Assembly: GCF_000233715.2 (NCBI RefSeq)
Contig: NC_021184.1
Coordinates: forward strand, 3,496,001 to 3,560,000
Origin: Desulfoscipio gibsoniae DSM 7213
Lineage (GTDB): Bacteria; Bacillota; Desulfotomaculia; Desulfotomaculales; Desulfallaceae
Length of the DNA: 64,000 bases
Direction: 5' to 3'
Shown: one piece after another, positions 29,479-51,969 of the stretch
Numbering within the stretch: position 1 is the stretch's first letter
Layout of the letters: each line of letters begins with the position of its first letter
Translations under genes and position numbers: made by a program
The notes under the pieces: generated by a model
What the model was told of the DNA's origin: nothing
The model's database searches: none
The model's input: only the letters and a program-made list of their open reading frames with translations

Positions 29479-29516
29479 TATTAAATCACCCCTTGATTTC
29501 CAGTATTGCCTATAAA

Positions 29517-30473
29517 CTAAACAGAAAAGTCCATATAATAATGTTCGTCATCCAATTTATAAAAATCGACATCAGTTCTGCCGTATCGTTCTAAATCTGC
29601 ACGCCATATGTAAGCTCCATTAGCAACCCCAATTCTATTTCTAAAGTACTCACCTAGAAGAGAGTTGTTCATCGGAGTAGTAATGGCTTTGTCATTTTGC
29701 TGTTCAACACGCAAAATTAATTGTTTATTGTCATCAGTGACCACAGAAAAATGCTGTTTTTCCAAAGGAAAAAAGCCAGAACGTGCAATTGAAGCAGGAA
29801 GCCCGATGTATGCCTGATTAGGCTCCCTGCCGTCACGCTGACCCCAGTTAAGTCCTGACCTTGTTCCTGTTTCACCGTTTCTTGCCAAAAGTGATAATTT
29901 AATAGGTTCGATTCCTTCACCACGCAGAGCTTGAGTATATTCGCTCTCTGATTCCAGTACCGGATGCGTCGGTGTAAACACAATATTATCTTCAACTTCC
30001 GAATGAGTGCAATAAATAGAATCGCATTCAACTTGATTATAATAATCAAAGGCTCCTTCCGGATTGCAGGGAACAATATACTCCCGCCTGCTTGTACTGA
30101 AACCAGCCTGTGTATAGTTGGCTGATCCTGTATATGCCTCAAATGGTTTATCATCCTTTAACCAAATATAAAGTTTGCTATGAACAGGAGCACCCTGACA
30201 TATATACTGACATTGAAAACTTGAAAAACCTGACCCGTTTTGAGCATTTACCAACTGTCTGAATCCTTCATGTGCATCTATGGTTAATCCATCATAATTA
30301 GTCATTCCAACAATCAGCTTTATATCAATGGGATTTATTTCGAGTTCCTTTATTTTCATCATATGCCACGAGGCCATAGTTGGGGTAGCATAACCAGAAA
30401 GCAAAAGAAGCTGCTGTGCTCCTCTGGTTATTGGCTCAATTAATATTTGATTTACCATAGCAGGATCAAACAT
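29517..30473 (-). CDS. NgoFVII-type (PLD-superfamily) restriction endonuclease
   Basis: The 318-aa protein has the phospholipase-D nuclease motif HSKLYIWLKDDKPFEAYTGS (H-x-K-x4-...-GSxN) followed by ANYTQAGF, and a C-terminal beta-rich recognition domain (LNWGQRDGREPNQAYIGLP). This is the RE_NgoFVII layout, metal-independent like BfiI. It starts 14 bases after the methylase stop. Confidence 0.88.
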   Translation of the reverse strand: MFDPAMVNQILIEPITRGAQQLLLLSGYATPTMASWHMMKIKELEINPIDIKLIVGMTNYDGLTIDAHEGFRQLVNAQNGSGFSSFQCQYICQGAPVHSKLYIWLKDDKPFEAYTGSANYTQAGFSTSRREYIVPCNPEGAFDYYNQVECDSIYCTHSEVEDNIVFTPTHPVLESESEYTQALRGEGIEPIKLSLLARNGETGTRSGLNWGQRDGREPNQAYIGLPASIARSGFFPLEKQHFSVVTDDNKQLILRVEQQNDKAITTPMNNSLLGEYFRNRIGVANGAYIWRADLERYGRTDVDFYKLDDEHYYMDFSV

Positions 30474-30487
30474 AGCAGTTCACCATC

Positions 30488-31546
30488 CTATTCGCTGATG
30501 TTGGCCGGAATACTCTCATATTCAATGCCGGCAAAGGTGTTTAAAATGGCCTCGAATATGATTCTGGCTCCTTCACAGGGAACTGCCATTCCTATTTGTT
30601 TTCGCACGCTTTCTTTCGATCCTAAAAATTCAAATGTATCCGGGAAAGTTTGCAAACGCGCTCTTTCACGGTTAGTCAAAGCTCTGGGTTCTGCCCAATG
30701 GTAAATATGCGTTCCTCCGCCGCCGCTTCCTGTAACGGTATATGCCGGTTTATTCGGATCAAGGCGCTTGTAGATTTGACTCATTCTGGCTCCTCGTACA
30801 TTAAGCTGTAATTCTTGAGGAATATCAGCAGTAAAAGCATTCTGCCCAGGCAAAATGTGCTGCAGTCTCTGTACAACTATATCAGACTGGTTTGTCAGCT
30901 CATTGTTCGGTGCATCTATAGGAATAGGCGGCTCTTCAATAGCCTTTCGGCATGAATTATCAATATCTTTATATGGGGCAGGCGAAGGCACTTTAAAGAC
31001 AACATTTTTGCTCAGATCTTTTCTAATCCCAACAATTATCAGACGATGCCGGGCCTGCGGAATTCCATACTCTTCAAATTTGTACAAATGAGGAACCACA
31101 ACATAACCAGCTTTTTTAAGTTCGCTTATAATCTTAGTAAAAGCTTTGCCATCATTGGCATTTCGAAGCCCTCCTACATTTTCAGCAAGGAACCAGTCTG
31201 GAGTAAAAATTTTTAGAGCTTTGACACCATAAGAATACAGCGGCCCAAATATTCCGTCCATACCTTTCTGCTCGCCGACAACGCTGTAATCATTGCACGG
31301 AAAGCCAAAAGCCAGAGCATCTATGGGAGACAGTTTTTTCATATCAAATTTCCGAACATCTTCATGATATACTGTTTCCGGCTTATCTGGACATATATTG
31401 TGACAGTATGTATCGCATGTATCTTTATCATAATCATTTGCCCATTCGTGAGCAATGGAGTATTTGCCATCTGCGCTGCGAGCTTTTAATGCGCCGTAAG
31501 CTATGCCCCCCGGTCCGCAGAACAGCTCTCCTAATCTATACTTCAT
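30488..31546 (-). CDS. DNA (cytosine-5-)-methyltransferase
   Basis: Motifs in order: I (YRLGELFCGPGGIAYG), IV (ALAFGFPCNDYSVVG, catalytic Cys), VI (WFLAENVGGL), VIII (IPQARHRLIIVGIR), then IX and X (LTNRERARLQTFPDTFEF, QIGMAVP). ATG at 31546 follows AAGGAGG. It overlaps the regulator gene by 11 bases. It protects host DNA against the cognate endonuclease; the target sequence cannot be read from the protein. Confidence 0.95.
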   Translation of the reverse strand: MKYRLGELFCGPGGIAYGALKARSADGKYSIAHEWANDYDKDTCDTYCHNICPDKPETVYHEDVRKFDMKKLSPIDALAFGFPCNDYSVVGEQKGMDGIFGPLYSYGVKALKIFTPDWFLAENVGGLRNANDGKAFTKIISELKKAGYVVVPHLYKFEEYGIPQARHRLIIVGIRKDLSKNVVFKVPSPAPYKDIDNSCRKAIEEPPIPIDAPNNELTNQSDIVVQRLQHILPGQNAFTADIPQELQLNVRGARMSQIYKRLDPNKPAYTVTGSGGGGTHIYHWAEPRALTNRERARLQTFPDTFEFLGSKESVRKQIGMAVPCEGARIIFEAILNTFAGIEYESIPANISE

Positions 31547-31895
31547 GGTATTCCTCCTTATTTGCAACAAAATGCTTTTTAGCTAAAAAATCAATAGATT
31601 GCTGAATGAAATTACGTTCTTCATCGCTTAATATTTCATAGTTATTAAACGGCTGCTGTTTTTGTCCCGAAATATCAGTATTTTCTAAATAGCCAGCCAG
31701 TTTATATAGATAAATCAAATCAACTTGATATAATGATGCCAACTTTTTCAGCACCTCTGGGGAAGGTTCATTGACTTGATTTCGTTCTATCCGATTTAAA
31801 CGGGTAGCTGTTATCCCGGTTTGCTCGCATACAGCGTTTAAGCTTAAAGAAAGCTTGACCCGTTGCTTTTTGAGATAAGTACCGATAGAATTCAT
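31536..31895 (-). CDS. XRE-family controller-type regulator of the R-M operon
   Basis: ATG at 31895 with GGAGGTG. The 119-aa protein has an N-terminal HTH (LSLNAVCEQTGITATRLNRI) and a helical tail ending in the methylase start region. Small HTH proteins just before R-M genes (C proteins) delay endonuclease expression. The upstream inverted repeat supports this role. Confidence 0.85.
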   Translation of the reverse strand: MNSIGTYLKKQRVKLSLSLNAVCEQTGITATRLNRIERNQVNEPSPEVLKKLASLYQVDLIYLYKLAGYLENTDISGQKQQPFNNYEILSDEERNFIQQSIDFLAKKHFVANKEEYHEV

Positions 31896-31898
31896 TAC

Positions 31899-31977
31899 AG
31901 CACCTCCATATTTGCAGTATAACATATTTGCAGCGAAATCGCAATAATATTTTAATTTTGCTGCTTTTTCGCTGCAA
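31899..31977 (-). promoter_or_regulatory. R-M operon promoter and candidate C-box
   Basis: An 11-bp perfect inverted repeat (TTGCAGCGAAA at 31928-31938, TTTCGCTGCAA at 31967-31977) lies upstream of the regulator. On the minus strand TTGCGA and TATACT are 17 bases apart with the promoter-proximal repeat arm between them. Two ATATTTGCAG direct repeats lie near the start site. All fit autoregulation by the HTH protein. Confidence 0.65.
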
Positions 31978-32033
31978 GGCATAAGGTAAGCATAGTAAAG
32001 TCTATTGGATTTATCATGAAAAAACTGCCAACA

Positions 32034-32119: not shown

Positions 32120-33784
32120 TTAATCAAAGTATGAAACCCTCTGGTTCATCACGATTCCGGATTTGAATTGAAGCTCTATCAGGTCGTCCTTGACGGCCTT
32201 TATGCTCTGAAGAAGCCTCCTGACAAGGTCGTTGTCAAAGTCCCTGACCTCGTAGGTAGTTTTCTTCAGGCAGGCATCCATATCGTCAAGCCGTTGTTGA
32301 AAATTCTCCGCCATTTTCTGATCCCGAACCATCTCCAGCTTTTTCTGTTTCAGGTCGTTGATCTGCTCTGCTATCCTATGATACTGCTCGTCAAAATCCT
32401 CTGTGATGGAGCCTTGCTTAGCGTTTTCCTCTATCAGAGCCAGCATTTCACCCTGCAGCTTTTGTATCTGCTCGTCATATTCGGTGGGCACATTCTTAGT
32501 GGAGTAACTGCCGATGACTCGAATAACATTCTCTCGAAAGGCGCCTACAAACTCGCCGCGGTTTTCCACGACGCTGTTGATGGCGGTCATTACAGCTTCA
32601 TGGAGGACGGCCTCTTTAAACGTAGGGGAGTGCTTGCAGTTCTTAGTACCGTTCTTCAGGCGGTTCTCACATCGCCACACGGCGCTTTTCTGTCCGTATT
32701 TCGACCATACTTGTCGGCGGTAGGGCTGACCACATTCCTTACATACCATGATGTCGGACAGGGCGAATTTGGAGCTATACTTGCTTTTTTTCTTTTCCTG
32801 TTCCTGCTTTGCCTTGCGGGTTGCCGCCGTCTTACTCAGGCTTGCCCGCCTCGCTTTTTCTTCCTGCACTTGATAAAAAAGCTCCTTGGGGATGATGGCT
32901 TCATGGTCATCCTCTATGTAATACTGAGGGACGATACCATCGTTCTTAACTCGCTTTTTGGTAAGGAAGTCAATGGTATAGGTTTTCTGCTGAAGAACGT
33001 CGCCCATGTATTTTTCATTACTTAACATCTTATTGATGGTACTGTCCCACCACTTAGTCCCGCCGGTAACAGTGGTAATGCCCTCCGATTCTAATAGCTT
33101 GGCAATCTGTATAACGCTGCTCCCTTCGAGGTAAAGCCGGAAAATCCGTCTGACCAGCTCCGCTTCCTCCGGTACAATAACCAGTTCGCCGTTCTTATCC
33201 TTGGTGTAGCCTAAAAATTTGTTGTGGTTGACCGAGACGATACCATTCTCAAACCGTCTGACAAGACCCCATCGGGTGTTCTCACTAAGGTTTCGGCTTT
33301 CCTCCTGTGCCTGGCTGCTTAAGATGGTTATTAAAAGCTCGCCTGTGCCCTCCAGCGTGTTCACACCCTCTTTCTCGAAGAACACGGCGACGTTCTTTTC
33401 CTTGAGCTTGCGGATATTCATGAGGCTGTCCACCGTGTTTCTGGCGAAACGGCTGACCGACTTGGTGATGACCATATCAATTTTTCCGGCCATGCAGTCC
33501 TCGATCATGGCGTTGAAGTCATCGCGCTTTTTGGTGTTTGTTGCGCTTTTACCGTCATCAGCGTAGATACCAGCAAGCTTCCAGTTGGGATTGCTTTTGA
33601 TTTTTTCGGTATAATAGGAAACCTGTGCTTCGTAGCTGGTTTCCTGTTGCTCCAGCGTGGTGCTGACGCGGCAGTATGCCGCCACCCGCAGGGCCTTAAA
33701 CTGGGGCTTTATGCTCCTGTCATACTCCGGTTTGGAGGGTATGAGGGATATGCTTTTCTTTTTTGCTGTCGCTGTCTGCATCAT
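32120..33784 (-). CDS. Large serine recombinase (ICE integrase/excisionase candidate)
   Basis: The 554-aa protein shows the catalytic N-terminal domain (VAAYCRVSTTLEQQETSY with the nucleophile Ser, KSVSRFARNT), the recombinase domain (LYLEGSSVIQIAKLLESEGI), a zinc beta ribbon (CKECGQPYRRQ...CKHS) and a coiled coil with a C-terminal tip. It is complete. It is the outermost of three recombinase genes at the left end of the conjugative element, so the attachment junction probably lies just left of its stop. AAGGAGAAA precedes the start. Confidence 0.93.
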   Translation of the reverse strand: MMQTATAKKKSISLIPSKPEYDRSIKPQFKALRVAAYCRVSTTLEQQETSYEAQVSYYTEKIKSNPNWKLAGIYADDGKSATNTKKRDDFNAMIEDCMAGKIDMVITKSVSRFARNTVDSLMNIRKLKEKNVAVFFEKEGVNTLEGTGELLITILSSQAQEESRNLSENTRWGLVRRFENGIVSVNHNKFLGYTKDKNGELVIVPEEAELVRRIFRLYLEGSSVIQIAKLLESEGITTVTGGTKWWDSTINKMLSNEKYMGDVLQQKTYTIDFLTKKRVKNDGIVPQYYIEDDHEAIIPKELFYQVQEEKARRASLSKTAATRKAKQEQEKKKSKYSSKFALSDIMVCKECGQPYRRQVWSKYGQKSAVWRCENRLKNGTKNCKHSPTFKEAVLHEAVMTAINSVVENRGEFVGAFRENVIRVIGSYSTKNVPTEYDEQIQKLQGEMLALIEENAKQGSITEDFDEQYHRIAEQINDLKQKKLEMVRDQKMAENFQQRLDDMDACLKKTTYEVRDFDNDLVRRLLQSIKAVKDDLIELQFKSGIVMNQRVSYFD

Positions 33785-33802: not shown

Positions 33803-34702
33803 TTAGTATCCGGCTTCCATGGTTAATCCGTTTATAAATTCAAACACCAGCCGATGGTCGGCGTAGACCGTGATTTGCTTTATCACTGCCAGAAACAGTT
33901 CCTCATCAAATTCCGTGAGAAGCTGTCTGCCTGAAAACGCCTGCTTTATCTTTTCGGTATTATACTCGGCGTCATTGATTTTTGCTGTTCTATAAAGAGC
34001 TTGTGCCCGCTTAAAAACAAGAGCCGGAAGCTCCTTGGACGAATATTGCCCTTCTGCTTCCAGCTCTTTAATCCGCTGATCCAAGCTATTAAATTCAGGG
34101 TTATTTGGAATTGGCTCTTTCTTAGGCTTCCGGTCGAGGATTTGTATTCTTGCAATAATCCGGTTAGCTGCCTCAAGGAAGGCCTTTTCAAGCTGCTCAT
34201 CCGTGAGAAAACCGCACCGGCAGCACACTCGGTTCTTGTAAATGTACCTCTTACACTTCCAGTAGGACTTCTCAGACGGTCTTCCGCAGTGCTCGATGTA
34301 TTTGCGGTAAACCTCGCCGCATTCTCCGCAACGGAGCTTACCAGTGAACGGATATTGATGATTTCCGCTGTTTGGCTGAATGCTTCGCCCCAGCTGATCA
34401 CAGCGTTCCTTGCGGCGTTTCTGCACGTGCTCAAAAAGCTCGGTGCTAATCATCTGCGGATAGAATTCATCCCCAAGGTATTTGACATTCTCCAGTATCT
34501 TGCCGATGGACCCGTGGTTCCAGGAGGCTTTGTTGTTAGCGTTCGGAAAAGCCATTTCGGTTAGCCGCTTTGCAAGGACAGAGGTAGAGACTCCGGAGAG
34601 GTAATCTGCAAATATCCTCTTCACAACAGCGGCTTTAGGTTCATCAAGCTGTATTTTGCCGTCCACCAGCTTATACCCGATTGGCATGTGCCTTTGCATC
34701 AT
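33803..34702 (-). CDS. Recombinase-like protein lacking the catalytic domain
   Basis: ATG at 34702 with AAGGAGG. The 299-aa protein begins at MPIGYKLVDGKIQLDEPKA, i.e. at the recombinase domain, then zinc ribbon (CGECGEVYRKY, later CRCGF) and a helical C-terminus. The whole N-terminal resolvase domain with the serine is absent. It overlaps the preceding recombinase by 32 bases. Being in frame, well-initiated and otherwise intact, it is probably a natural DNA-binding accessory rather than a broken gene. Confidence 0.85.
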   Translation of the reverse strand: MMQRHMPIGYKLVDGKIQLDEPKAAVVKRIFADYLSGVSTSVLAKRLTEMAFPNANNKASWNHGSIGKILENVKYLGDEFYPQMISTELFEHVQKRRKERCDQLGRSIQPNSGNHQYPFTGKLRCGECGEVYRKYIEHCGRPSEKSYWKCKRYIYKNRVCCRCGFLTDEQLEKAFLEAANRIIARIQILDRKPKKEPIPNNPEFNSLDQRIKELEAEGQYSSKELPALVFKRAQALYRTAKINDAEYNTEKIKQAFSGRQLLTEFDEELFLAVIKQITVYADHRLVFEFINGLTMEAGY

Positions 34703-36302
34703 CCTCAATCGCCTCCTTCCTGCAGGGTTCGGACAGCTCCAGCCGGTTGATGAGCCGGAATGTGATTTGTCCGTTTTTCTGTACGATAACCTTTTCTATC
34801 GCCTGTAAAAATAAATCCTCATGGTATTCTTCAATAACGTGAGGATTGTTTCTAACTAGCTCTATTAGCTGTTCTGTTCCGGCTATCTCTCGGTCGAAGC
34901 CGTTATTGTCCAGTAGCTGGCTTCGTTTCTTTTTTGCGGCGGCAAGCTCTATAGCCAGGGTATTTTGCCGCTCTATAAAAACTGCATGGTCGATATACCC
35001 CTTCGCTACTAGTCTGCTGAGTATATGACCCTGTTCTGTCAGCTCCATAATCCGGTTACTGCATTCCCCGATTTCCTTCTCCTGCCGTTCGTCTATCCTG
35101 AGCTTTTTGAGCATCTCCAGAAGGGGAGTGAGAATTTCAGTATAATTACTTACGAGCTTGTTCCACATCAAGGTGAAAGCCCATTGAACGTCATCCTCTC
35201 GGACTGCCTTTTGCCTGCATTTGGTGCTGTCGAAAATATGCTGGCGGCAGCACCATTGGGTTTTCTCATATGGCTTGCCGATATAGATTTTTTGCCTTCG
35301 GAATAGGCTGCCGCATTCGCCACATAGGATTTTACTGCTGAAGGCATACCGGCTTTGGTATTTCTCCAAATCGTCCACCCCCATCTGTTTTCTGCGGTAT
35401 TCAAAAATTTCTTTTACTGCCTCCGCCTGTTCATGTGAGATAATGGCTTCATGATTGTCCTCAATAAGGTATTGGGGAAGCTGGCCTTTGTTTCTCTGCC
35501 GCTTAAAGGGCAGCACCTCTGTGGTCATGGTTTTCTGATGAAGCAGCTTGCCAGTATAAATGGGATTTAGGAGCATTTCCTTTATCACGCCGTCATTCCA
35601 TTTCTCAGCCGAGCGTATCGTGTGGAGTCCTTCCTCCGATAAATCCTTGGCGATGGCATATGTACCCTTGCCGTTCAGGTATTCACTGAAGATGCGGCGA
35701 ACCACTGCGGCTTCTTCCTCCTGTATGACCAGATCGCCGTTCTCATCCTTGGTATAGCCGTATGCGGGAGTGCCGAGGATGAAGGTTCCGTCCTGAAAGC
35801 GCTTTATTGCCGCCCATTTATTGTTGGTGGAGACGCTTTCGGCTTCCCCCTGTGCCAGAGAGCTTAGAATGGTTAGCATTAATTCGCTTTTCTCCGCCAG
35901 GCTGTCGATATGCTCCTTTTCAAAGTAAACCGAGACGCCAAGCTGCTTCAGCCTTCGGATTGCTTCAATACTGTCTACGGTGTTTCGGGCAAATCTGGTC
36001 ACGGATTTCGTGATAATCATATCGACCTTTCCGTCCTCGCAGTCCTTCATCATCCGCAGGAAGTCATCTCTTTTTTGGAGCTTAGTGCCGCTTCTCGCTT
36101 CATCGGCGTAAATTCCGGCAAACTGCCAGTTCTCTTGATTTTCTATCAGGGCGGTATAATACTCAAGCTGTGCAGTAAAGGAATTCTGCTGCTCACGGGA
36201 ATCGGTGCTTACCCGACAATAGGCGCAAACCCGTTTTTTAGGCTGTAGCTGTCGGGTGACCTGTTGCTTAACAGGATCAATTCTTACTATCTTCTTAGCC
36301 AT
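34671..36302 (-). CDS. Large serine recombinase, second full copy
   Basis: The 543-aa protein has VCAYCRVSTDSREQQNSF (nucleophile Ser), KSVTRFARNTVDSIEAIRRL, SSLAQGEAESVS, recombinase domain (YLNGKGTYAIAKDLSEEG), zinc ribbon (CGECGSLFRRQ...CRQ) and a C-terminal coiled coil. It is complete. AAAGGAGAAAACC precedes ATG. It differs considerably from the copy at 32120 and is the first gene of the overlapping recombinase trio. Confidence 0.93.
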   Translation of the reverse strand: MAKKIVRIDPVKQQVTRQLQPKKRVCAYCRVSTDSREQQNSFTAQLEYYTALIENQENWQFAGIYADEARSGTKLQKRDDFLRMMKDCEDGKVDMIITKSVTRFARNTVDSIEAIRRLKQLGVSVYFEKEHIDSLAEKSELMLTILSSLAQGEAESVSTNNKWAAIKRFQDGTFILGTPAYGYTKDENGDLVIQEEEAAVVRRIFSEYLNGKGTYAIAKDLSEEGLHTIRSAEKWNDGVIKEMLLNPIYTGKLLHQKTMTTEVLPFKRQRNKGQLPQYLIEDNHEAIISHEQAEAVKEIFEYRRKQMGVDDLEKYQSRYAFSSKILCGECGSLFRRQKIYIGKPYEKTQWCCRQHIFDSTKCRQKAVREDDVQWAFTLMWNKLVSNYTEILTPLLEMLKKLRIDERQEKEIGECSNRIMELTEQGHILSRLVAKGYIDHAVFIERQNTLAIELAAAKKKRSQLLDNNGFDREIAGTEQLIELVRNNPHVIEEYHEDLFLQAIEKVIVQKNGQITFRLINRLELSEPCRKEAIEDDAKAHANRV

Positions 36303-36381: not shown

Positions 36382-36543
36382 TTACGCATATACCTTAGAA
36401 AGTTCCGGCGTGAAGGTTTCTCTGTTCAATTCGTCTATTTTTTTGTACTCAGCAGGGGATATAAGGCCGTTTCGGAGCATTATATCCAATAGCTTTAACG
36501 CCACCTTGTATTTCACCTCATTGGCTGACTGATCCTTTGACAT
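36382..36543 (-). CDS. Small SHOCT-like ICE protein (53 aa)
   Basis: The frame encodes MSKDQSANEVKYKVALKLL and DIMLRNGLISPAEYKKIDEL, a short helical domain with the LLxxGLISxxEYxKI pattern of SHOCT-like modules. It lies 13 bases after the resolvase-like gene and ahead of the recombinases in the same operon. Small genes like this recur in such recombination modules. Role unknown. Confidence 0.7.
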   Translation of the reverse strand: MSKDQSANEVKYKVALKLLDIMLRNGLISPAEYKKIDELNRETFTPELSKVYA

Positions 36544-36556
36544 TGCGCACCCTCCC

Positions 36557-37267
36557 TTACTGCATGGAAAGGTAAGGGCTTTGTTCCAGCTGAATTTCGC
36601 CCTCCAGCGGTGAATAAAGCTCGATGTCCAGTTGTTCCAAGCCTCGGATGAATTCCAGAGTCTTGGCGGTATTCCGTCCTAAACAGTCAAGCTTTTTTAT
36701 AAGCAATATATCCATTCTGCCTTCTCCGGCGGCCTTCGCAACCTCGGCGAGACCGGTGCGGTCAAACTCCATACCGCTTCCGAGATCCTCGGAGTACCCA
36801 ACAACTTCAAAGCCCATCTGCTCGGCATAATCCATAAGATCCTTTTTCTGTCCTTTTAAGGCTCCGTGGGTATCCTCCGGTGCGTCAATCCTGCAGTAAA
36901 CCCAGGCTTTCTTCTGCTCCTGCTGATTCCAGAAGGCTTGTGCTTCCTCCATACTGACAATCGCTATACCATCAGGCTTCTTATCGCCCATCTGCATGGG
37001 TACCAGCTCTTTTGTGATTTCCCGAAGGAGCTTCTGATCAGGGCAGCGGTTGATAAATTCGCCAAAGGTATTCAATATCAGCCTGTCCAGCGTATCTGTC
37101 AGAACAATTTTGTCTGCATACTCCTTTTTCAGCATGATAAAGCTGGCGATGTTGGACGGGGACTTCGCAAAATAGTATTCCTGTCTCTCTCCATCAAGCG
37201 TGTACACATATCCGATGACGAGATCCTTTTTTAGTAACTCTGCTAACGCTTCCTTTTGCATATCCAT
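36557..37267 (-). CDS. Resolvase-domain protein without the catalytic serine
   Basis: The first 95 residues are a separate domain (LLKKDLVIGYVYTLDGERQE). The C-terminal half is a resolvase fold: KAWVYCRIDAPEDTHGALKG, EDLGSGMEFDRTGLAEVAKA and ILLIKKLDCLGRNTAKTLEF. The nucleophile position of YCRVS is Asp (YCRID) and the Arg-rich active-site segment reads KKLDCLGRN, so strand cleavage should not be possible. The gene is first in the recombination operon and is likely to be a regulator or assembly partner of the active recombinases. Confidence 0.75.
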   Translation of the reverse strand: MDMQKEALAELLKKDLVIGYVYTLDGERQEYYFAKSPSNIASFIMLKKEYADKIVLTDTLDRLILNTFGEFINRCPDQKLLREITKELVPMQMGDKKPDGIAIVSMEEAQAFWNQQEQKKAWVYCRIDAPEDTHGALKGQKKDLMDYAEQMGFEVVGYSEDLGSGMEFDRTGLAEVAKAAGEGRMDILLIKKLDCLGRNTAKTLEFIRGLEQLDIELYSPLEGEIQLEQSPYLSMQ

Positions 37268-37300: not shown

Positions 37301-37660
37301 GGATACGGCAGGACGGAAAAACCCCACCCTGCCGCATAGTTTCCAAGATCAAAAATGATCTGTTTGTTCTTCATTTCGGACTTCACTTCTATTCGACACT
37401 ACTTCCCGAAGTGACAAAAGCCTTACGGCTCTCAGGGCGACAGCATAAACGGTTTGCCGGTTAAGCAAACGCCATAGGAATCTCACCTCTCCCAGGATCT
37501 CTGGAAGCCGCCCCCATTGCTTGAGTCTGTGGCTGGACGGAAGTAGCATTATCACTGTCCATTTCATTGCGAAACAGTCCACCACGGACTGTTTTATGAC
37601 CGGGCGTTCCCGCTCGTCACCTTCGATGCCATCGGTTCGACGGATGAAATTCATCCGCAG
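37301..37660 (-). other. Gene-poor stretch rich in hairpins
   Basis: Between the resolvase-like and sigma-like genes (37268-37823) there is no convincing gene. Hairpins include CGGCAGG...CCTGCCG (37307-37334), CAGTCCACCACGGACTG (37577-37593) and GTTTGCCGGTTAAGCAAAC (37450-37468). The 101-codon minus frame at 37349-37654 lacks a clear ribosome binding site. A structured RNA leader is possible. Confidence 0.35.
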
Positions 37661-37770: not shown

Positions 37771-37809
37771 AAAACCCCCTCACTGACTTCCACGTTGAGC
37801 GAGGGGGTT
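37771..37809. terminator. Terminator after the sigma-like gene
   Basis: AACCCCCTC and GAGGGGGTT form a strong stem, preceded on the plus side by a run of A that serves as the U-tract on the minus strand, 15 bases beyond the sigma-like gene's stop. Confidence 0.8.
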
Positions 37810-37823: not shown

Positions 37824-38273
37824 TTACTTTTCCATAAGTTTTTTTATTTTGCCTAGGATTTTTATCTTTCTATCATGAATGGTCATATAGTGAATGCCCG
37901 TTTCCGCCGAGAGCTTGCGTTCGCTTTTGCCCTTGAAAAACAGCTCAGTGATTAGTGTTTGTTCCTCCGGACTAAGCAGCTTAAGGCACGCCAGCATTTT
38001 TTCAAGCATCACGGCCTTTATTGCAGCATCCTCTACGCTTTCGTCCTCTGCAGCAAACTGCCGGTTTTCCTCCGACAGCCTGTCATAGGAATCCTCCTTG
38101 CTTGCTATGTACGTAACGATCTGTGTTGTGCTGTCAATTCGGTATCTTCCGACCTTCAAATCGTACTGCTGGTACTCCATCTTCCGGTCGCTTTTCATCA
38201 GAACATCGATGATATCATCGCTTAAGTCGGGATATTTCTCCCGATAGTTCGTCCTTTTTCTAAATACAGCCAT
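37824..38273 (-). CDS. Sigma-70 region 4-like regulator of the ICE
   Basis: ATG at 38273. The 149-aa protein contains an N-terminal YREKYPDLSDDIIDVLMKSD segment and a C-terminal sigma region-4-type HTH (LSPEEQTLITELFFKGKSER, KLSAETGIHYMTIHDRKI). Such sigma-like proteins precede recombination genes in Tn916/Tn1549-type elements and are thought to activate them. A long hairpin precedes it and a terminator follows it. Confidence 0.8.
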   Translation of the reverse strand: MAVFRKRTNYREKYPDLSDDIIDVLMKSDRKMEYQQYDLKVGRYRIDSTTQIVTYIASKEDSYDRLSEENRQFAAEDESVEDAAIKAVMLEKMLACLKLLSPEEQTLITELFFKGKSERKLSAETGIHYMTIHDRKIKILGKIKKLMEK

Positions 38274-38430
38274 ATAGCTTGTCCTCCATTTCGTGGTTTT
38301 TGAAATCCGGAAATGAAGAACAAGCGGAGAGGAACGGCAATGAACAGCCTTTATATAAAAATAAAAAATATAAGCCACTCGTTTTGCTCCTTTCTGGGGA
38401 GCCTAAACGAGCAGCATGTGAATGCAAAAA

Positions 38431-38476
38431 GGCCGGGCCTGACGCATAGCAATTGTGCTACTCGTCAGGCCCGGCC
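38431..38476. terminator. Very strong GC-rich hairpin
   Basis: GGCCGGGCCTGACG pairs perfectly with CGTCAGGCCCGGCC, and the loop has an inner TAGCA/TGCTA stem. It is preceded by AAAAA. It stands between the zinc-ribbon and sigma-like genes and probably ends the riboswitch-led transcript. Confidence 0.7.
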
Positions 38477-38573
38477 GGCAGCTTTATAATCACTCCGCTT
38501 TACAAGAGGAGGATAGCGTCAAGCGCTGGAATCGAATATTAAATGTATCAATTATTCGGTTGTATAGCTTGTC

Positions 38574-38789
38574 CTATTTCATAGAGTGGGATGTCTGCTT
38601 ACTTCCATAAACCTCGTTATTGTCCAGCATAATCGAAACCTGTGATTTACACAGGTGGCATTTCAAGCTGAGAACATCGCTTTCGGCCTCACTCGTTTCA
38701 GCCACCAAGGCCAACGCCTCAGCATTTCCGCTGTAATCAGCAATTCGGCGTCCGCAATTCGGACATTTGAGCTTTATTTTTTTTACCAT
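38574..38789 (-). CDS. Small zinc-ribbon ICE protein (71 aa) behind a c-di-GMP riboswitch
   Basis: ATG at 38789 with AGGAGGT. KLKCPNCGRRIADY and LKCHLCKSQVSIML supply two CxxC knuckles, a complete zinc ribbon resembling phage Com-type small regulators. It is the first gene downstream of the c-di-GMP-I aptamer and so its likely target. Function unknown; a DNA- or RNA-binding regulator is plausible. Confidence 0.75.
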   Translation of the reverse strand: MVKKIKLKCPNCGRRIADYSGNAEALALVAETSEAESDVLSLKCHLCKSQVSIMLDNNEVYGSKQTSHSMK

Positions 38790-38824
38790 CTCATACCTCC
38801 TGCATTATTTTCTCTATCAATACA

Positions 38825-38945
38825 AACGCCTGCTCTTAAAAAAGGGCAGGCATTCGCAAAGATCGGCAGCCAGGCTGTCATAGCGCGGCAAACGCTTTAG
38901 ACCCTCGGCTTTGCGTCCCTGCCTTTAGACAGGTTTGCCCTTAAC
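38825..38945 (-). promoter_or_regulatory. Cyclic di-GMP-I (GEMM) riboswitch with downstream hairpin
   Basis: On the minus strand the aptamer reads GGGCAAACC, a P2 hairpin (CCTG...CAGG), then GGGACGCAAAGCC with the conserved receptor, GGGTCTAAAGCG, and CTATGACAGCCTGGCTGCC closing the third helix. This order matches the GEMM-I consensus. After the aptamer, GCCTGC...GCAGGC (38827-38850) with T-rich loop forms an expression-platform hairpin before the AGGAGGT of the zinc-ribbon gene. Confidence 0.88.
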
Positions 38946-39052
38946 TTTATTTATATTTAGCTGTCAGAGTAATTAAAGCCGTCATGCGCTTTGCAGACGG
39001 TAATTTCCTAGCAATCCGTTGGGTTCAATAGTTTTACACGGAAGAAATAACT

Positions 39053-39180
39053 CTTGACACAATGTGCAACATGAATTATTATAAATGTGCAGGTTATATT
39101 CATATTTGAATTATATGCAATTTACATGCACTTGTCAATATATAACATGAAATTTACCTGCTTATACATAGGAGGGCGGT
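39053..39180 (+). promoter_or_regulatory. Promoter and operator region of the XRE/ImmA pair
   Basis: TTGACA at 39053-39058 is followed after 17 bases by TATTAT. Related segments GTGCAGGTTATATT and, inverted, AAATTTACCTGC recur around it together with ATGTGCAACATG and ACATGCAC, suggesting binding sites for the XRE protein. Opposite it, on the minus strand, lies the riboswitch transcript. Confidence 0.55.
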
Positions 39181-39184: not shown

Positions 39185-39601
39185 ATGAAATTCGGAGAAA
39201 AAATAAAGGATGCCCGCGTCGCAAAAGGCATGACACAGGCGGATCTGGCACAGGCGGTCGGGGTATCTCTCCGCACAATGGTCAGCTATGAAAACGGAGA
39301 TTGCTATCCAAAAAAACGCGAGGTATACGGGAAGCTGGCTGCAGCTTTAGGTGTTGAGGTGAATTATCTTCTGACCGAGAACGAGGAGTTTATTAACGCT
39401 GCCGGAGAAAAATACGGCCACCGGGGAAAGAAGTATGCCCAGCAGCTCATCACAGAGGTCAGCGGCCTGTTTGCCGGAGGCGACATGGATGAGGCGGATT
39501 TGGACGCCGTTATGAAAGCAATCACCGACGCTTATTGGATAGCCAAGGAGAAAAACAAAAAGTACACACCGAAAAAGTACCGCAAAGCAGATAAGGAGTA
39601 G
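39185..39601 (+). CDS. XRE-family transcriptional repressor
   Basis: GGAGGGCGG precedes ATG at 39185. The 138-aa protein has a Cro/cI HTH at residues 1-60 (MTQADLAQAVGVSLRTMVSY) and a helical C-terminus. It is followed by an ImmA-like metallopeptidase, the ImmR/ImmA arrangement of ICEBs1, in which the peptidase cleaves the repressor to release the element. It is probably the ICE master repressor. Confidence 0.88.
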   Translation: MKFGEKIKDARVAKGMTQADLAQAVGVSLRTMVSYENGDCYPKKREVYGKLAAALGVEVNYLLTENEEFINAAGEKYGHRGKKYAQQLITEVSGLFAGGDMDEADLDAVMKAITDAYWIAKEKNKKYTPKKYRKADKE

Positions 39602-39652
39602 TCCGTTTTTTTGGACTGCTGCTGTGATAGAATCAGCATGGAGGTGAATTTA

Positions 39653-40165
39653 TTGAACAAGTCGCTACTTTATGAATCAGCTGAAAAGTATATCAGACGC
39701 TTCGGTACGCGCGACCCTTACGCCATAGCAGACGGGCTGGGCATTGAGGTTCTGTTCCGAAACGACTTCGCTAAACTGAAAGGGCTTTACCGCGTGATCC
39801 AGCGTAACCGTTTCATCTTCTTAAATGAAAACCTGCCGGAACAGGTACAGACCTTGGTCTGCGCCCACGAGCTCGGACATGACGCACATCATCGGAATCT
39901 CGCCGATGACAGTCCGTTCCGTGAATACGTTCTTTATTCCATGAATACGCGTCCAGAGTATGAAGCCAATTTGTTTGCGGCTTCACTGCTTCTTCCCGAT
40001 GATGAGGTTCATAAGTATGCCCGTGAAGGTTATGACGTTGTCCAGATTGCAGCCATGATGAACACAGATATTAACCTCATGCTGATAAAGATGGGAGACA
40101 TGAATTCAAGAGGCTACTCGTTTAATACAGTTTATACACCTCGTTCAGATTTCTTGAGCAGATAA
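39653..40165 (+). CDS. ImmA/IrrE-family metallopeptidase
   Basis: TTG at 39653, preceded by GGAGGTGAAT, is preferred. The 170-aa protein carries VCAHELGHDAHH (HExxH zinc site with the second His) and YEANLFAASLLLPDDEV, with the third zinc ligand Glu. In ICEBs1 and related elements this peptidase inactivates the upstream repressor upon DNA damage or cell signals. Confidence 0.92.
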   Translation: MNKSLLYESAEKYIRRFGTRDPYAIADGLGIEVLFRNDFAKLKGLYRVIQRNRFIFLNENLPEQVQTLVCAHELGHDAHHRNLADDSPFREYVLYSMNTRPEYEANLFAASLLLPDDEVHKYAREGYDVVQIAAMMNTDINLMLIKMGDMNSRGYSFNTVYTPRSDFLSR

Positions 40166-40379: not shown

Positions 40380-42689
40380 CTATTTGTAAAATGGACTTAA
40401 ATTAATAAATAGCTGATTGTCGATTTTGCCGGCAATTTCTCTGCTGATTACCTCAATTAACTCCTCTTGTCTCGGCTGGCCTAATGTCAGTCGATATAAC
40501 GACAGTATTTTAATCAAGCGATTGTATCGCAAATGGTCCTGGCTCAACGGATACATCGGAACGATACGTTCAATCTTGACCGGAGCTTCTTCTCCATCCG
40601 TCAAACACCAGTACGGAACAAGATCCGGCAGATCACCCTTTTCTGTTTGTGCAGCTTTTTCAAACATAGCATCCCATGTTTCTTCACTGTTGTATTTGTG
40701 TGCAATATTTTGACGCACCGCAAGGCACTTGTATCGATTGATACGTCCCTCACGCTGCTCCAGGTCAATAGGGTTTGACGGTAAGTTCCAGTGCATGACC
40801 TTGCGGCAGTAGAAGTGGAAATCCAATCCTTCCTGACCGATTGATGTAGTAGACAACACGAACGGACGGAATGGTGAATTAAACGCTTTGCGGATTTTCT
40901 CAGTTCTCTGTACATTTTCGTTGCTGACGCGAGCATTGAAATATCCAACAGCAAAGTGCGTGCGCAGGCGCGGCTTTTCTTTTTCTGCTCCTGTAAAGAA
41001 TTCCAGCGTATCTACCTGCAAAGAGGCCGTATCCGAAAAGGCATCGATCATCGCATCTGCAAGTGCTTCTCCTTGTTCGCCAAGTATATGAGCGTATTCA
41101 TCCAGCATAGCCTTCAGATTGCCGTCCACACAGTATCGAAAGACATTTTCATAATAGGAATCGTCGCCCTTGCTGCCATACAGCAAATCTAGAACAGCCG
41201 AGCTTTCCGCTTTATTAAACAAGCTGACAAATACTTTTTTAGCAAGCTCCCTGGCGATCACTTCGTTAGAATTAAAAAGCCTGTAGGCACAAATGGCAGG
41301 TGAACCAATTGCCATGTTGACAAATATACCAACAGCTCCGACTGGGATAGTCGCAGGTGCCACTGATGGATTGCTGTCCAGTGCTTTTATAAGCTCTATC
41401 AGCGACTTTGCACCGGCAGCTCCGCTTTCGGAAAGCTTGTATTTGGCTTTGACGGCATCCAGCTTTGGCTGAAGCTTTTCGGCAAGCTCTCTCCTGATTT
41501 GCTTAATATCCTTGCTGATGTGCTCATCCGGATTATAAAGCCGTGCAAGGGTGCCGGACACATGGCAGATAATATCTTCCGTTTCGTTTTTAAGCCTTGT
41601 AATTCCAAAACGACGTTCTTCCCTAGTTGCAAAGTATCCTCTGCCGCGCTTCAGCTTTGCGTTATGAAAGAGCTTGCCGATCGTCAGCCGTTCTGCTTCG
41701 TAAGAAAGCATAGCCGACACCATTCTCGGCACCATTTCCCATGAGGAAAATACGAGCACCTTTGAATAGTCTTTGTTTTTATCAAATATACTTCCTGTTC
41801 TGTAATAAGACTTTGATGGTGGAATTCAAAGCAGATTTTCAGCGCTGTTTTTACCGCCCTCAAATACAACATCCTTTAGCTTTTCCAGCCGTGCGTTGTT
41901 TGCGGCTATAGCCTGATAGTTATGTATGGTGCTTTTCTTCAGAAGCAGGCACTTGGCATTTTGGCCTTTTACCATTTCAAAGTCATGATATTTAGAAAAA
42001 TGATCTGTAATTTGTTTTTTTAGCTGATAGCTTTCCATGAACGAGAGCAGATAGGGTGAAGATTTTACATAATCCATGGGAACATTGCGATAACGAAGGG
42101 GTCGCTTACTTCGGGCACTGATTTCATCTAAAAGGGATTGCATCTCACTGTATGACAGAATATCCCCATCTGAGATTGAAACCTCCCTTGCATCGCTGTC
42201 ATCGATAATCCCGCTGTTAAAACGCTCTGTCCGGCAGATACTTTTATAAAGCGCATCTTCAGCAGTATTCTTCCTTGCAAGCAGTACCGTAAAATCACCT
42301 TTCGAGATTTCGCAAAGCGAGTTGGAGTAATCCTGCCACACCTTCTGAAAGCTTTGATGCGCTTCGTCATCATAAAAAAGAAACCGCATTACCTCCATAA
42401 ATTCTTTGTAATGTTCCGCATTTTCATCACTGATTTCTTCCAGTGTAGAGTACGGCTTGTAGGGCGTTGCCGACAGAAGCAGTACCTTGGTGTCGGTATT
42501 TTGCAGAAACTGCCGAGTAAGCATTCCTTGTTCATCATCTGCGGGGACAATCAAATCGCGGAAGCGTTGAAACTCATCCATGACAACCAGATCAGGCTCC
42601 AGCTTATCAAGACTGATTTGAGCAAAGATCCTCCGCAGAGCGTTGATCAGCGGTCTGCTCTCGTACTTTTTGGACGGGCTTCTTGATGT
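40380..42689 (-). pseudogene. SNF2/superfamily-2 helicase, nonsense-mutated and missing its N-terminus
   Basis: The upstream half shows LEPDLVVMDEFQRFRDLIVP (motif II) and VLLLSATPYKPYSTLEEISD (motif III). The downstream half shows VLVFSSWEMVPRMVSAMLSY, FVLSTTSIGQEGLDFHFYC and DLEQREGRINRYKC (motifs IV-VI). They are in one frame and separated only by a TGA at about 41824 (NLL-stop-IPPSKSYY), probably a former TGG. The Walker A part is absent: the frame is cut by a stop at 42690. The gene is therefore inactive. Helicases of this type are common cargo of Tn1549-like elements or defence systems. Confidence 0.85.
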
Positions 42690-42802: not shown

Positions 42803-45460
42803 TTACCTGTTATTATCATCCATCATCTGAGCAAATAGTTCAGCAATTGCGGGGTCAAATTGCTTTCCTGCGCCCTCTTTAATAGTTTCAATTGCCTTCT
42901 TTTTACTTTCTAATATTGAAAGATTCCCTCTGTTCAGCACGCGTTCATAGGTTTCTGCAATTGATATAATTCTTGCTATCAGGGGAATCTGTTCACCTTT
43001 AAGCCCGCGCGGATATCCGCTGCCATCCCAGCTTTCATGGTGGCTGTAAACGTATTCCGCTAAATCCAGTGTATCATCGAAAAGATTCAATATGCGGTAT
43101 CCGACAACCGAATGCTGCCGTATTTCTTCGAATTCTTCCGCTGCCAAAGCTTCCTTGGATAAAAGCCTTGCATCAAGTGTGATTTTACCAATATCGTGCA
43201 TGTAACCAGCCCGTTTTAATTTATTGATTTCCAGTTCTGAAAGTTGCAGTACAGAGCCGATCTCACTGCAAAATTCACTTACAGCTATCGAATGCAGCCT
43301 TTCTCTGGCACTCCTTGAATGTAGCGTCTCAATAATGTTATCAATAATATCCATTTTTATCGATTTGCGATTCATGGTCTTGTCCTGATACATCGCATTT
43401 TCGGCGTCGGTCATTATTTCATCTAATGACTGATCCGGACTTCTTTTCGTATCAAGGCCAAGAGAAATACTGCACTTTATTGCCGCCACGCGAGCATCTA
43501 AAAATTCCGATTTAATTCGTGAAATTACCTTCTCAGCATTTTTCTCACTTGTATTCGGCAAAAGAATAATAAATTCATCCCCTCCTACACGAGCGACAAT
43601 ATCATTCTCTCTGCAGGAACGCACAAGTATTTCGGCAGATTTTTTTATTAGCTCGTCTCCAGCAGCATGGCCAAATATATCATTGGTCATCTTTAACCCG
43701 TTAATATCGGCAAAAATGACAGACAACGGCAGATGATCTGGATTGTCAATTTTAATGCGATTATCCTCAAAACATCTTCTGTTATAAAGCCCAGTCAGAG
43801 TATCATGACAGCTCAGATATTGAATTTCTGCTTCTTTTTGTTTGCGCTCGGTGATATCCATAAAGGTTACCACTCCGCCGATAATCTCACCATTTTTTAT
43901 TTGTGGATATGAGTGGTACTCCACATCAAAGGAAATGCCATCAGCTCTCCAGAACACTTCATCATCAGCTTCAAAACCCTTACCTTGCTTTATCGACTGA
44001 AAGATCCTGCATTCATCAATAGGAAACGGTGTTCCATCACGTCGGGTATGATGAATCTGGTGATGCATATTTTTCCCGAGCAATTCATCCTGGCTGTTAT
44101 ATCCCAATAATTTAATGCAGCTTATATTACAGAATGTGCATTCGCCATTCAGATCCATCCCATAAATCGCCTCCGCGGTAGAATCCAATATTAGCTGCAG
44201 TTGATTTTTATTTTCTTCCAGATCTGCGTTTGCCTTGTGCAATTCCTCGGTTCTTGCTTTTACAGCAGCTTCAAGATTATTTATAAGAAATTGCATTTTG
44301 TCAGCTACTCTATTAAAGCTTTCTGAAATTCTCCCAATTTCGTCGTTTCTAACAATATCAACTCTCTTTGTCAAATCCCCGGAGGACAAGGCCTCAGAGA
44401 CCCGCAGCAAGTTATTCATCGGCTTCAAAAGTCTTCCGGTTATAATCATATATATAACTAGTGATATCAACAATGCCAGTGCTGTCAGCAGCACAGTCAA
44501 GTGAATACTTTGAACCACAGGTGTAATAAGAAGCCCTTCCGGAATTGCTGAAATAACAACCCAATCCAGACCTTCCATATGAATTTCTTTTACGTTTATG
44601 TATATATTTTGGTCTTTACCTTCATACAAGAAATTTGGGTCTTGATGAACTGTATATTTTTTATATGCTTGCTTAAAATCAGAATCTTCAACCTTATCAA
44701 GGCTATGCCTTTCTAATGTACCATCCGGAAGAACAGCAAAATTATCTATTCCCATTGAATTAGCTATCAAGGTATTAGAGCCTTTCTCAAGGATAACAGC
44801 ATATCCATTGTATTTGCTTACTGCATTCTTCAGGTATGTGCCAATATCCGTGAGCAGCATGTGGGTTCCAAGAACCCCCTGAAGCTCACCTAATTTATTA
44901 TAAATTGGACATGCAAACGATACGGTTAAATCGTCCATCACAAAATGCTTATAGATTGGGGAGAAGGTAGGACTCCCTGTCTCAACAGCTGCCTTATACC
45001 ATGCCCGCGTACGCGGATCAAATTTACCTGCCTGAACAGCAAGGTCTCCGGCTGTCATATCATCATTTACTGAATAATACCATGAATTGCCCCTTGTACC
45101 GGCATTATTTCTCATGATTTCAATAACACCTTTTTCATTCCTGCGAGCTCCGTAATATTCACCATCTGCAGTACCGTAGCTGAAGCTATATATCTCATCA
45201 TCACGTGAGCTTAAAACACCAACAAAAAACTTGTCTCTAAGTCTTTCATCATTAATATCAAGAATGCCATTTGCTATGATTTTATGATTCGCTTCATTGA
45301 TTTGACTGGGCACATGAATAAAAGAATATATTTGATTATATATGCTCTCGTTGAGCTCTTCAGCTATGCTCTCAGTTGTTTGCCTTGCAGAAGAAAACCA
45401 GTTATTAAAAATCAAATATCCAATACTGCCGATGGATACAAGCATAACTAATATAAATAC

Positions 45461-50078: not shown

Positions 50079-50939
50079 TTATTGAAGGATTTTTTCCAAC
50101 AACGAAATTAATTCTTGTGGATATTTTTCTTTTTCATTTCTGAGTTTATTTATCGCAACGTCCATTGACTGTGACTGCCTATAAGGCCTATAGGAGGTGA
50201 TTGCATCAACAGCATCGGCAATCATTACAATTCTTGAATTGCGGCTTATTTCGTCTCCCTTCAGTCCCTTTGGATATCCGCTTCCGTCAAGACGCTCATG
50301 ATGCTGCATAACAATATCCATATACTCCTTAGGTAGATTAAAGCTCTCAAGAGAACTCATACCCAATTCGCAATGCTGTCTCACTAAAGACATTTCCGAA
50401 TCGGTCAATTTTTCAGGCTTTTGTATAATTGACTTTGGTACCAGCAATTTGCCTACATCATGCAGCATTGCCCCTATACCTAAGTTAGTAAGCTCTTCAT
50501 CGCTGTATCCCAGTTCAACAGCCATCATCAACGAAACCACGGCAACATCAATTGAATGTGTGTATAGCCAGTCCACGTAATTACTCAAAGCGTTGACATA
50601 AATCCACCAAGGTTTAGTTTTAGATTCAAATATTATATTGATTAATATGTCATTAGGTTTCTCTAGAATGCGACTGTCACGGATACTCATTCTTTCTACG
50701 AATTCCTTGGTAACCGGAGTGAGAACAGTGCTTTGCCTGTCATTCTGAGCAAGCAAAACATTTTGTATATTATCAGCATCGCTTGACTTTTCCTGATCGA
50801 CTTTTCCAAGCCTCTCCAGCCTATTTTTAACTTCAGCTGTTATTTTCTGACCCTTGCTTAATAACAGCATCCCTCTCTTGTCATAAATATCTTGAGCAGT
50901 ATAATATTCGGAACCCTTTTTGATAAAATATTCAGCCAT
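50079..50939 (-). CDS. HD-GYP domain c-di-GMP phosphodiesterase
   Basis: ATG at 50939 follows AAAGGAGC. The 286-aa protein has an N-terminal DUF3391-like region (YTAQDIYDKRGMLLLSKGQK) and a complete HD-GYP domain: IGAMLHDVGKLLVPKSI, RQHCELG, HHERLDGSGYPKGLKGDEIS and DAVDAITSYRPYR. It hydrolyses c-di-GMP, probably to GMP or pGpG. It precedes the GGDEF-EAL gene on the same strand. Confidence 0.92.
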   Translation of the reverse strand: MAEYFIKKGSEYYTAQDIYDKRGMLLLSKGQKITAEVKNRLERLGKVDQEKSSDADNIQNVLLAQNDRQSTVLTPVTKEFVERMSIRDSRILEKPNDILINIIFESKTKPWWIYVNALSNYVDWLYTHSIDVAVVSLMMAVELGYSDEELTNLGIGAMLHDVGKLLVPKSIIQKPEKLTDSEMSLVRQHCELGMSSLESFNLPKEYMDIVMQHHERLDGSGYPKGLKGDEISRNSRIVMIADAVDAITSYRPYRQSQSMDVAINKLRNEKEKYPQELISLLEKILQ

Positions 50940-50973
50940 CTTACTTGCTCCTTTCACTAGATAAATATGACTT

Positions 50974-51672: not shown

Positions 51673-51733
51673 GTTTATATGTTTTAAGCTATAATTGTTC
51701 ATTCCAATTCCTTAATCCATACACACCATCTAT

Positions 51734-51812
51734 TGGCAGCCCAACTATCATAGCAATCTCTTGCTTTAGACTTGCGGCTTTGCGTCTCCGCCTTTCGACG
51801 GATTTGCCTTTA
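51734..51812 (-). promoter_or_regulatory. Second cyclic di-GMP-I (GEMM) riboswitch
   Basis: On the minus strand: GGCAAATCC, P2 hairpin CCGTC-GAAA-GGCGG with a GNRA loop, GAGACGCAAAGCC, AGTCTAAAGC, then GCTATGATAGTTGGGCTGCC. All conserved GEMM-I blocks are present in order. A terminator follows about 65 bases downstream. No minus-strand gene begins until Spo0E at 51135, with a plus-strand XRE gene between. Confidence 0.88.
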
Positions 51813-51969
51813 TCAATTTGCTATTTACTTTATAAGTATATTAAATTTCTTGCTTTTATCCAAAACTTCATCCTTTATATTAAGTTCATTCTAATACACC
51901 AGCATTTTTTCCCTTTGTTTTTTCAGGATCTATTTTTAACCTTCGTTTTAGTCGCCTAATGTTAAATAC

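Follow-up and report, generated by a model that had tools for sequence, protein, structure and literature searches.

Does a conjugative-type element listen to the lifestyle signal of its host, and would it time its own mobilisation by what it hears? The question is raised by a c-di-GMP-I (GEMM-I) riboswitch in the sulfate reducer Desulfoscipio gibsoniae DSM 7213, in a stretch of 64,000 nucleotides (contig NC_021184.1, positions 3,496,001 to 3,560,000 of the forward strand) that was analysed whole and is here called the window; coordinates are those of the window unless a related locus, designated by an L number, is named. Conjugative elements are known to be set off by DNA damage, by quorum signals and by antibiotics. 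In the accessible portion of the open-licence literature we recognised no report of such an element with a c-di-GMP riboswitch among its control sequences. The initial annotation, made from the letters alone, had placed an aptamer at the head of a regulatory and recombination module and had proposed that mobilisation responds to host c-di-GMP. The aptamer and its setting stand, and what is new here is its conserved place ahead of the module in loci that were gathered independently of the riboswitch. That c-di-GMP governs mobilisation is plausible but unproven: it is a good hypothesis that faces an obstacle, because a second terminator stands before the sigma-like gene and a zinc-ribbon gene lies directly behind the aptamer. 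If it is true, a conserved second-messenger riboswitch would tie horizontal transfer to biofilm or motility decisions in anaerobic Bacillota, and excision frequency is predicted to depend on c-di-GMP, perhaps in opposite directions in two lineages.

The aptamer and the element that carries it

We class the element as conjugative-type because of its gene content at the Pfam level, which comprises a MobL relaxase and a coupling protein in the window and, in the same element outside the window, an AAA_10/HerA ATPase and a TrbL_5 protein. Its ends were not found by a search for attachment sites as direct repeats, which gave no repeat longer than 14 nt in the stretches compared and matches of 13-14 nt at most between the two ends examined. 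The layout around the aptamer is as follows.

57185-59809, minus strand: MobL relaxase (PF18555)
53757-55823, minus strand: type IV coupling protein (PF02534)
53476-53745: open reading frame
39611-40165, plus strand: IrrE/ImmA-like metallopeptidase (Peptidase_M78)
39185-39601, plus strand: XRE-family regulator, divergent (HTH_3)
39110-39138, minus strand: promoter-like site TTGACA-17-TATAAT directed towards the riboswitch, close to where the divergent XRE gene begins (12/12 consensus match)
38862-38949, minus strand: c-di-GMP-I riboswitch aptamer no. 1 (RF01051)
38574-38789, minus strand: zinc-ribbon protein gene, 71 aa, first behind the riboswitch (ORF)
37824-38273, minus strand: sigma-like gene, 149 aa (TIGR02937, E 1.3e-7, under the curated cut-off; C-terminal fold like sigma region 4)
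37774-37809, minus strand: terminator-like hairpin behind the sigma-like gene (read from the sequence; missed by the hairpin scan)
37472-37552, minus strand: pemK RNA (RF02913, 63.2 bits against a gathering score of 34.8)
36557-37267, minus strand: pseudo-resolvase, a resolvase N-domain with Asp for the catalytic Ser (PF00239)
36382-36543, minus strand: SHOCT_2 protein gene (PF20612)
34671-36302, minus strand: large serine recombinase 1 (PF00239, PF07508, PF13408; YCRVS present)
33803-34708, minus strand: recombinase 2, without a resolvase domain (PF07508 and PF13408 only)
32120-33784, minus strand: large serine recombinase 3 (PF00239, PF07508, PF13408; YCRVS present)

The order given in the initial annotation, with the aptamer ahead of the zinc-ribbon gene and the sigma-like gene (38273-37824) and the recombinase genes (37267 down to 32120) beyond it on the same strand, is the order found, and the conjugation genes bear out its view that the aptamer heads a regulatory module of a conjugative-type element. 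Aptamer no. 1 matches RF01051 over its full length (38949-38862) at 84.8 bits with an E value of 2.8e-15, so that the covariance scan named in that annotation as a check returned a score far above the gathering score of 35 and not the value below threshold that would have spoken against an aptamer. Our own covariance model, which was built with aptamer no. 1 included, scores it at 99.3 bits. Across an alignment of 32 matches from 30 sources, 30 of them distinct, itself fitted to the covariance model, 97.3% of the cells pair and 14 of the 22 pairs show changes on both sides, values that none of 500 shuffles reached in either case; the RF01051 helices are backed by compensatory change. The core columns of the aptamers are near-invariant, and the riboswitch in the window is functional-looking.

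The choice of ligand can be read, with some caution, from a single position. A G at Vc2 position 20 favours c-di-GMP over cGAMP, and the position that we take to be its equivalent is G in both aptamers of the window and in 30 of the 32 aptamers altogether. It is A in two of them (L067 5077-5168 and L102 5526-5617), which for this reason are possibly cGAMP-responsive. Upstream of aptamer no. 1, five promoter-like sites were counted against a shuffle mean of 3.6, and the only notable feature among them is the perfect 12/12 match of sigma-70 type. This match, the pemK RNA and aptamer no. 2 are additions to the initial annotation, which names none of them.

Some observations on the neighbouring genes may be recorded here. 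In 60 of the 61 relatives the pseudo-resolvase has Asp at the position of the catalytic Ser, and in L077 it has Asn; taken with recombinase 2, which lacks the resolvase domain, the pair looks like a dead recombinase in two halves. A helicase-like gene lies in pieces at 40380-42581, and an 86% identical fragment is found upstream of the same module in L057. Just past recombinase 3, at 27931-31982, is a cluster resembling a restriction-modification system, with a C5 methylase, an NgoFVII-like nuclease, a FokI-like nuclease and an XRE regulator.

Conservation among related elements

Relatives were collected with an alignment of the pseudo-resolvase from nine loci, and not by way of the riboswitch; the search returned 53 loci from named genomes and 7 from viral contigs. 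On the pseudo-resolvase tree, 49 of 62 rows were judged, and 13 rows with less than 4.5 kb of upstream sequence and no aptamer were set aside. Rows left out were copies of kept loci (L029, L034, L035, L046 and L107, and L044 as a copy of L075), a near-copy of L054 (L055) and a weak match (L047), and three aptamer-bearing loci with short upstream sequence (L030, L051 and L063) were still counted. So judged, the aptamer stands upstream of the module in 30 of the 49 usable loci, the window included. Its place is kept within one clade: in the main clade of 36 rows, which holds the window, 27 of the 30 judged rows have it, the exceptions being L045, L056 and L059. A stricter rule that demands 4.5 kb of upstream sequence throughout, and so loses the three short aptamer rows, gives 27 of 46 overall and 24 of 27 in the main clade. 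Presence and absence change six times on the tree against 15.3 times in shuffles, and none of 500 shuffles went as low, a result that near-copies help. The support for the main clade is modest (83), the tree alignment has only 107 columns and near-copies remain in it.

Our own aptamer model, trained on 11 aptamers, gave 35 matches across 78 sources, a count that takes in copies and some of the training sequences, and every match lies upstream of the module on the sense strand. The hosts include Desulfosporosinus, Pelotomaculum, Lutispora, Sinanaerobacter, Kineothrix, Lacrimispora, Clostridium and Oscillibacter. On the sequences compared, the association of the aptamer with the control module of these elements is solid. 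The pemK RNA is found in 71 of the 78 sources, some by construction, and it is still present in 18 of the 19 usable loci from which the aptamer is absent. Rfam found no riboswitch of a c-di-GMP class in 20 loci, namely 18 of those 19 together with L084 and L087, nor in L045, the remaining one; a single Guanidine-I riboswitch, in L100, was returned from the aptamer-less set. A second group of pemK RNAs (L033 and L036 to L043) belongs to loci without matches to this recombinase module, and in seven of these nine loci the RNA lies about 2.2 kb or less from a tRNA gene.

Proposed serial gates and the predicted sign of the switch

What would such a riboswitch control? In the window and in L051, L054 and L057, the aptamer is followed at once by the zinc-ribbon gene, whose product in the window is 80-86% identical to those of the three relatives. 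The protein has no Pfam or NCBIfam match; relatives occur in 3 of 113 genomes of the order (its own included, the other two weak), one close relative was found among viral contigs, and none was found in plasmids at E 1e-5. Elsewhere the aptamer is followed by an HD-GYP gene (L061 and L106), by an oppositely oriented XRE gene (L031, L060, L066, L098 and L104) or by a reverse-transcriptase-like ORF (L073), and in many relatives there is no sense-strand ORF that we took as a gene between the aptamer and the sigma-like gene. Relatives that lack the aptamer have varied other ORFs ahead of the sigma-like gene. Between the aptamer and the recombinase operon of the window lie several further structures.

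38838-38861, minus strand: expression platform, with CUUUGCG..UGCCC ahead of U6 and potential pairing to CGCAAAG and AAGGGCA of the aptamer (folding; TGCCCTT match)
38822-38858, minus strand: distal hairpin GCCUGC..GCAGGC, without a U-tract (folding)
38426-38476, minus strand: second intrinsic terminator-like hairpin, between the zinc-ribbon and sigma-like genes (-40.8 kcal/mol, U5)
38277-38325, minus strand: hairpin sequestering the ribosome-binding site of the sigma-like gene (the same leader type in the 23 loci examined)
37364-37377, minus strand: GAAAUGAAGAACAA, behind the pemK RNA, a complement of the sigma leader hairpin's 5' arm

We suggest a series of several gates, of which the riboswitch would probably come first. 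Transcription would start at the promoter next to the XRE and IrrE genes and meet the aptamer first; production of the sigma-like protein would then need read-through past the second terminator and the opening of the hairpin over its ribosome-binding site, and the sigma-like protein would in turn activate the recombinase operon. The initial annotation had remarked that strong hairpins between the genes may make the coupling indirect, and the hairpin between the zinc-ribbon and sigma-like genes, with its U-tract, agrees with it. The scan found one or more further terminator-like hairpins before the sigma-like gene in 26 of 27 loci, which becomes 25 of 27 when those of L057, judged too poor, are discounted; L054 has none by the scan. 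As for the leader hairpin, its 5' arm and the sequence past the pemK RNA share a match that exceeds every one of 200 shuffles in length in 19 of 23 loci but not in L030, L060, L063 and L103, and because the loci are related we read this as conservation and not as independent evidence. The sigma-like protein scores 31.4 bits against TIGR02937, under the curated 42.9, and its fold matches are to region 4, the best at E 3.3e-3, with no structure match passing E 0.001.

A recurrent ORF of 19 codons with a Shine-Dalgarno-like sequence lies between the aptamer and the sigma-like gene in L053, L060, L062, L066, L098 and L031, and in several of these loci an internal hairpin of the CCGCTATT/AATAGCGG type can be seen by eye before the second terminator. 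We rejected the idea of a leader peptide between the two terminators, as the codon differences among the six ORFs do not point to selection on a peptide (38 synonymous against 127 nonsynonymous differences over all pairs), and the hairpin seen by eye coincides with the ORFs. In L031 (3005-5340) the sigma-like gene seems to be split by an insertion that carries a transposase-like ORF.

That the riboswitch is the first gate of the element's control operon, with the serial arrangement taken as a whole, is the reading we favour and consider somewhat more probable than not. It is supported by the score of the aptamer, the covariation, the conserved place, the folding peaks and the recurrent pairing described below, and the HD-GYP gene behind the aptamer in L061 and L106. 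It is weakened by the second terminator in nearly all loci scanned, by the many relatives without a sense-strand gene behind the aptamer, by the loci in which the pairing is absent, by the uneven folding competition and the unchanged access to the ribosome-binding site, by the usable loci that lack the aptamer, and by a sigma match that stays under its cut-off with no structure match at E 0.001.

The alternative that survives best holds that the riboswitch governs only the adjacent gene or a short RNA (the zinc ribbon here, HD-GYP or nothing elsewhere), that the sigma-like and recombinase genes have promoters of their own and that mobility is independent of c-di-GMP. In its favour stand the second terminator, so strong in the window and so common elsewhere, and the varied other ORFs before the sigma-like gene where the aptamer is absent; in Clostridioides difficile, five class I riboswitches lacked a detectable downstream coding sequence (PMC6200980). 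The place of the aptamer before the sigma-like gene is nevertheless kept through the main clade despite a next feature that varies, and L054 offers no second terminator to the scan. On balance we see this alternative as quite possible, though as the less probable of the two.

The sign of the response is a separate matter. A terminator-like hairpin stands 0-17 nt past the aptamer in 19 of the 27 scanned loci; the remaining eight are the four zinc-ribbon elements (the window, L051, L054 and L057), L069, L071, L102 and L106, and in L069 and L071 a similar hairpin can be made out by eye. For the 19 we infer an OFF layout, since bound ligand would occupy AAGGGCA and the terminator could then form. 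In these many relatives, c-di-GMP would stabilise the aptamer, the terminator would form and the operon would be off. The stretch TGCCCT(T) in the 5' arm and loop of the hairpin can pair with A(A)GGGCA of the aptamer in 18 of 30 aptamer loci, zinc-ribbon elements included; the pairing is at least 7 bp long in 15 of the 30, was reached by no more than 10 of 500 shuffles in 14 and is absent in 12.

In the window and in L057 the parts are arranged differently, with a distal hairpin that has no U-tract and a U-tract that directly follows UGCCC. Minimum-energy folds, computed for 26 loci, have the aptamer-excluding fold of the window peak at 6.9 kcal/mol just as U6 is made at +18, and that of L057 (U5) at 7.7 kcal/mol, and in both the competing fold falls away after the distal hairpin forms. 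Of the 22 loci that lack the zinc ribbon, 17 have the peak of the competing fold at +21 to +33, ahead of the terminator's U-tract at about +33 to +47. From the missing U-tract of the distal hairpin and the aptamer-excluding fold that ends in U6 we predict, with moderate confidence, that the riboswitch of the window is of the ON type, with c-di-GMP permitting read-through into the zinc-ribbon gene and the aptamer-excluding fold with U6 acting as the terminator. In L031, L065, L066 and L071, too, UGCCC is followed by a run of five or six U, there within the terminator loop, so that U6 by itself does not set the window apart; the distal hairpin without a U-tract does.

The mechanism is not uniform in these minimum-energy folds, as the U-runs and several other cases indicate. 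In L051 and L054, which share the zinc ribbon, the U-run is just U4 and the competition is weak (3.8 and 2.2 kcal/mol); L067, L102 and L068 have little or none (0.3, 0.0 and 2.0 kcal/mol); and L069, L077, L090 and L094 do not return to the aptamer fold past the terminator. We also considered translational switching at the zinc-ribbon gene and rejected it, since the predicted access to the ribosome-binding site is hardly altered by the aptamer: the unpaired fractions, free and with aptamer, are 0.21 and 0.21 in the window, 0.44 and 0.43 in L057, 0.58 and 0.63 in L051 and 0.99 and 1.00 in L054.

It is also conceivable that the riboswitch of the window is simply of the OFF type and that the ON fold is an artefact of modelling. 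The class I riboswitches of C. difficile are reported to be OFF switches throughout (PMC6200980), and the terminator-like hairpin close behind the aptamer in most of the related loci points the same way; against this, the hairpin that would have to serve as OFF terminator in the window is the one without a U-tract, and U6 stands behind the fold that excludes the aptamer. We regard an OFF switch in the window as unlikely. Weaker still, and in our view very improbable, is the notion that the aptamer is a roleless passenger hitch-hiking from a host gene, for which its absence from 19 of 49 usable loci could be cited, against the compensatory changes, the constant place and strand and the near-invariant core columns.

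The place of this RNA sensor ahead of the control genes, in the element and in many of its relatives, suggests that the element may take its cue from the lifestyle signal of its host.

A second riboswitch, an invertible segment and known systems

The element may also be able to change the signal that it senses, as it carries a second riboswitch and genes for c-di-GMP-degrading enzymes.

52794-52825 and 51965-51996: 32-nt inverted repeats bounding the invertible segment 51965-52825 (no strand), which is inverted relative to its flanks in L061 and L106
52096-52665, minus strand: tyrosine recombinase gene within the invertible segment (PF00589; 97% identical in L061 and L106)
52009-52037, minus strand: promoter-like site in the invertible segment, aimed at riboswitch no. 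2 in the window orientation (11/12 match)
51732-51818, minus strand: c-di-GMP-I riboswitch aptamer no. 2 (RF01051, 90.6 bits against 35)
50079-50957, minus strand: HD-GYP phosphodiesterase gene (Pfam HD_5; HDVGK and HHERLDGSGYP)
47064-49916, minus strand: GGDEF-EAL protein (Pfam; EAL motif present, GGDEF motif not found)
42803-45445, minus strand: GGDEF-HD-GYP protein of the variable region (Pfam; GGDEF, HD and GYP motifs intact)

Aptamer no. 2 sits in the variable region of the element, which is not the same from one relative to the next. L061 and L106 have its counterpart 240 nt ahead of an HD-GYP gene that keeps its motifs, with the sigma-like gene next in line, and the HD-GYP protein of the window is 68% identical to this homologue behind the riboswitch. 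In the window, 775 nt separate aptamer no. 2 from the HD-GYP gene, an interval that holds an XRE-like frame on the plus strand and a short ORF on the minus strand, and any control of the enzyme by the aptamer would for that reason be less direct. The invertible segment adjoins riboswitch no. 2, and its repeat arms are 94% complementary. DNA comparison places the segment in opposite orientations in the window and in L061 and L106, with 93% identity inside, which is an inversion between genomes and not within one. Promoter-like sites in the segment number nine against 8.7 in shuffles, a total not above chance.

One could go further and posit that each of these elements has its own closed c-di-GMP circuit, in which riboswitch no. 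1 gates the control operon and riboswitch no. 2 gates an element-borne phosphodiesterase whose expression is also switched by the invertible segment. Excision or transfer would be timed to the motile or sessile state of the host and that state would itself be shifted, the sign of the response having been reversed in one lineage by loss of the usual terminator's U-tract and the use of another terminator. We put this forward as a distinctly doubtful proposal. A second c-di-GMP-I riboswitch in L060 (291-382) precedes genes for a LytTR-like regulator, a histidine kinase and an AgrB-like protein, an operon that, by names given by eye from the sequence, resembles an agr quorum-sensing operon.

Several known systems invite comparison. 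Tn916 uses attenuation upstream of the sigma-like regulators of its excision genes; attenuation before sigma-like regulators is the likeness, and its signal and leader are, as far as known, unrelated to those of the window. The C. difficile prophages phiCD630-1 and -2 carry the c-di-GMP-I riboswitches cdi1_4 and cdi1_5, which are reported to lower the downstream transcript at high c-di-GMP (PMC7699646). As here, a riboswitch of this class rides on a mobile element, but the phiCD630 switch precedes the antitoxin RNA of a type I toxin-antitoxin system, whereas ours precedes a regulatory and recombinase module and recurs in many conjugative-type elements. The class I riboswitches of C. difficile at large share the aptamer class, and their OFF function resembles the terminator layout of the 19 loci; the targets named for them (flagella, an adhesin and ZmpI; PMC6200980) are, however, not the control operon of an element, and the switch of the window is predicted to be ON.

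The recombinases recall the serine-integrase triplet carried by streptococcal ICEs, with three adjacent recombinase genes in one orientation on a conjugative element (PMC4701971). The module differs in what precedes it, namely the pseudo-resolvase, the pemK RNA and the riboswitch, and in its middle recombinase, which has PF07508 and PF13408 only, whereas membership of the streptococcal type would call for a resolvase domain in all three. The invertible segment, finally, has a parallel in pdcB of C. difficile, a phase-variable phosphodiesterase: in both cases an invertible segment lies upstream of a c-di-GMP phosphodiesterase gene (PMC9286219). Here, unlike at pdcB, the recombinase gene lies inside the segment, the enzyme is of the HD-GYP type, a c-di-GMP-I riboswitch stands between the two and the whole belongs to the variable region of a conjugative-type element. 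Beyond the window, in L111 (14819-17887), genes for T2SSE, ParA-like and RcpC/CpaB proteins form a set resembling those for Tad/Flp pili that adjoins the conjugation genes.
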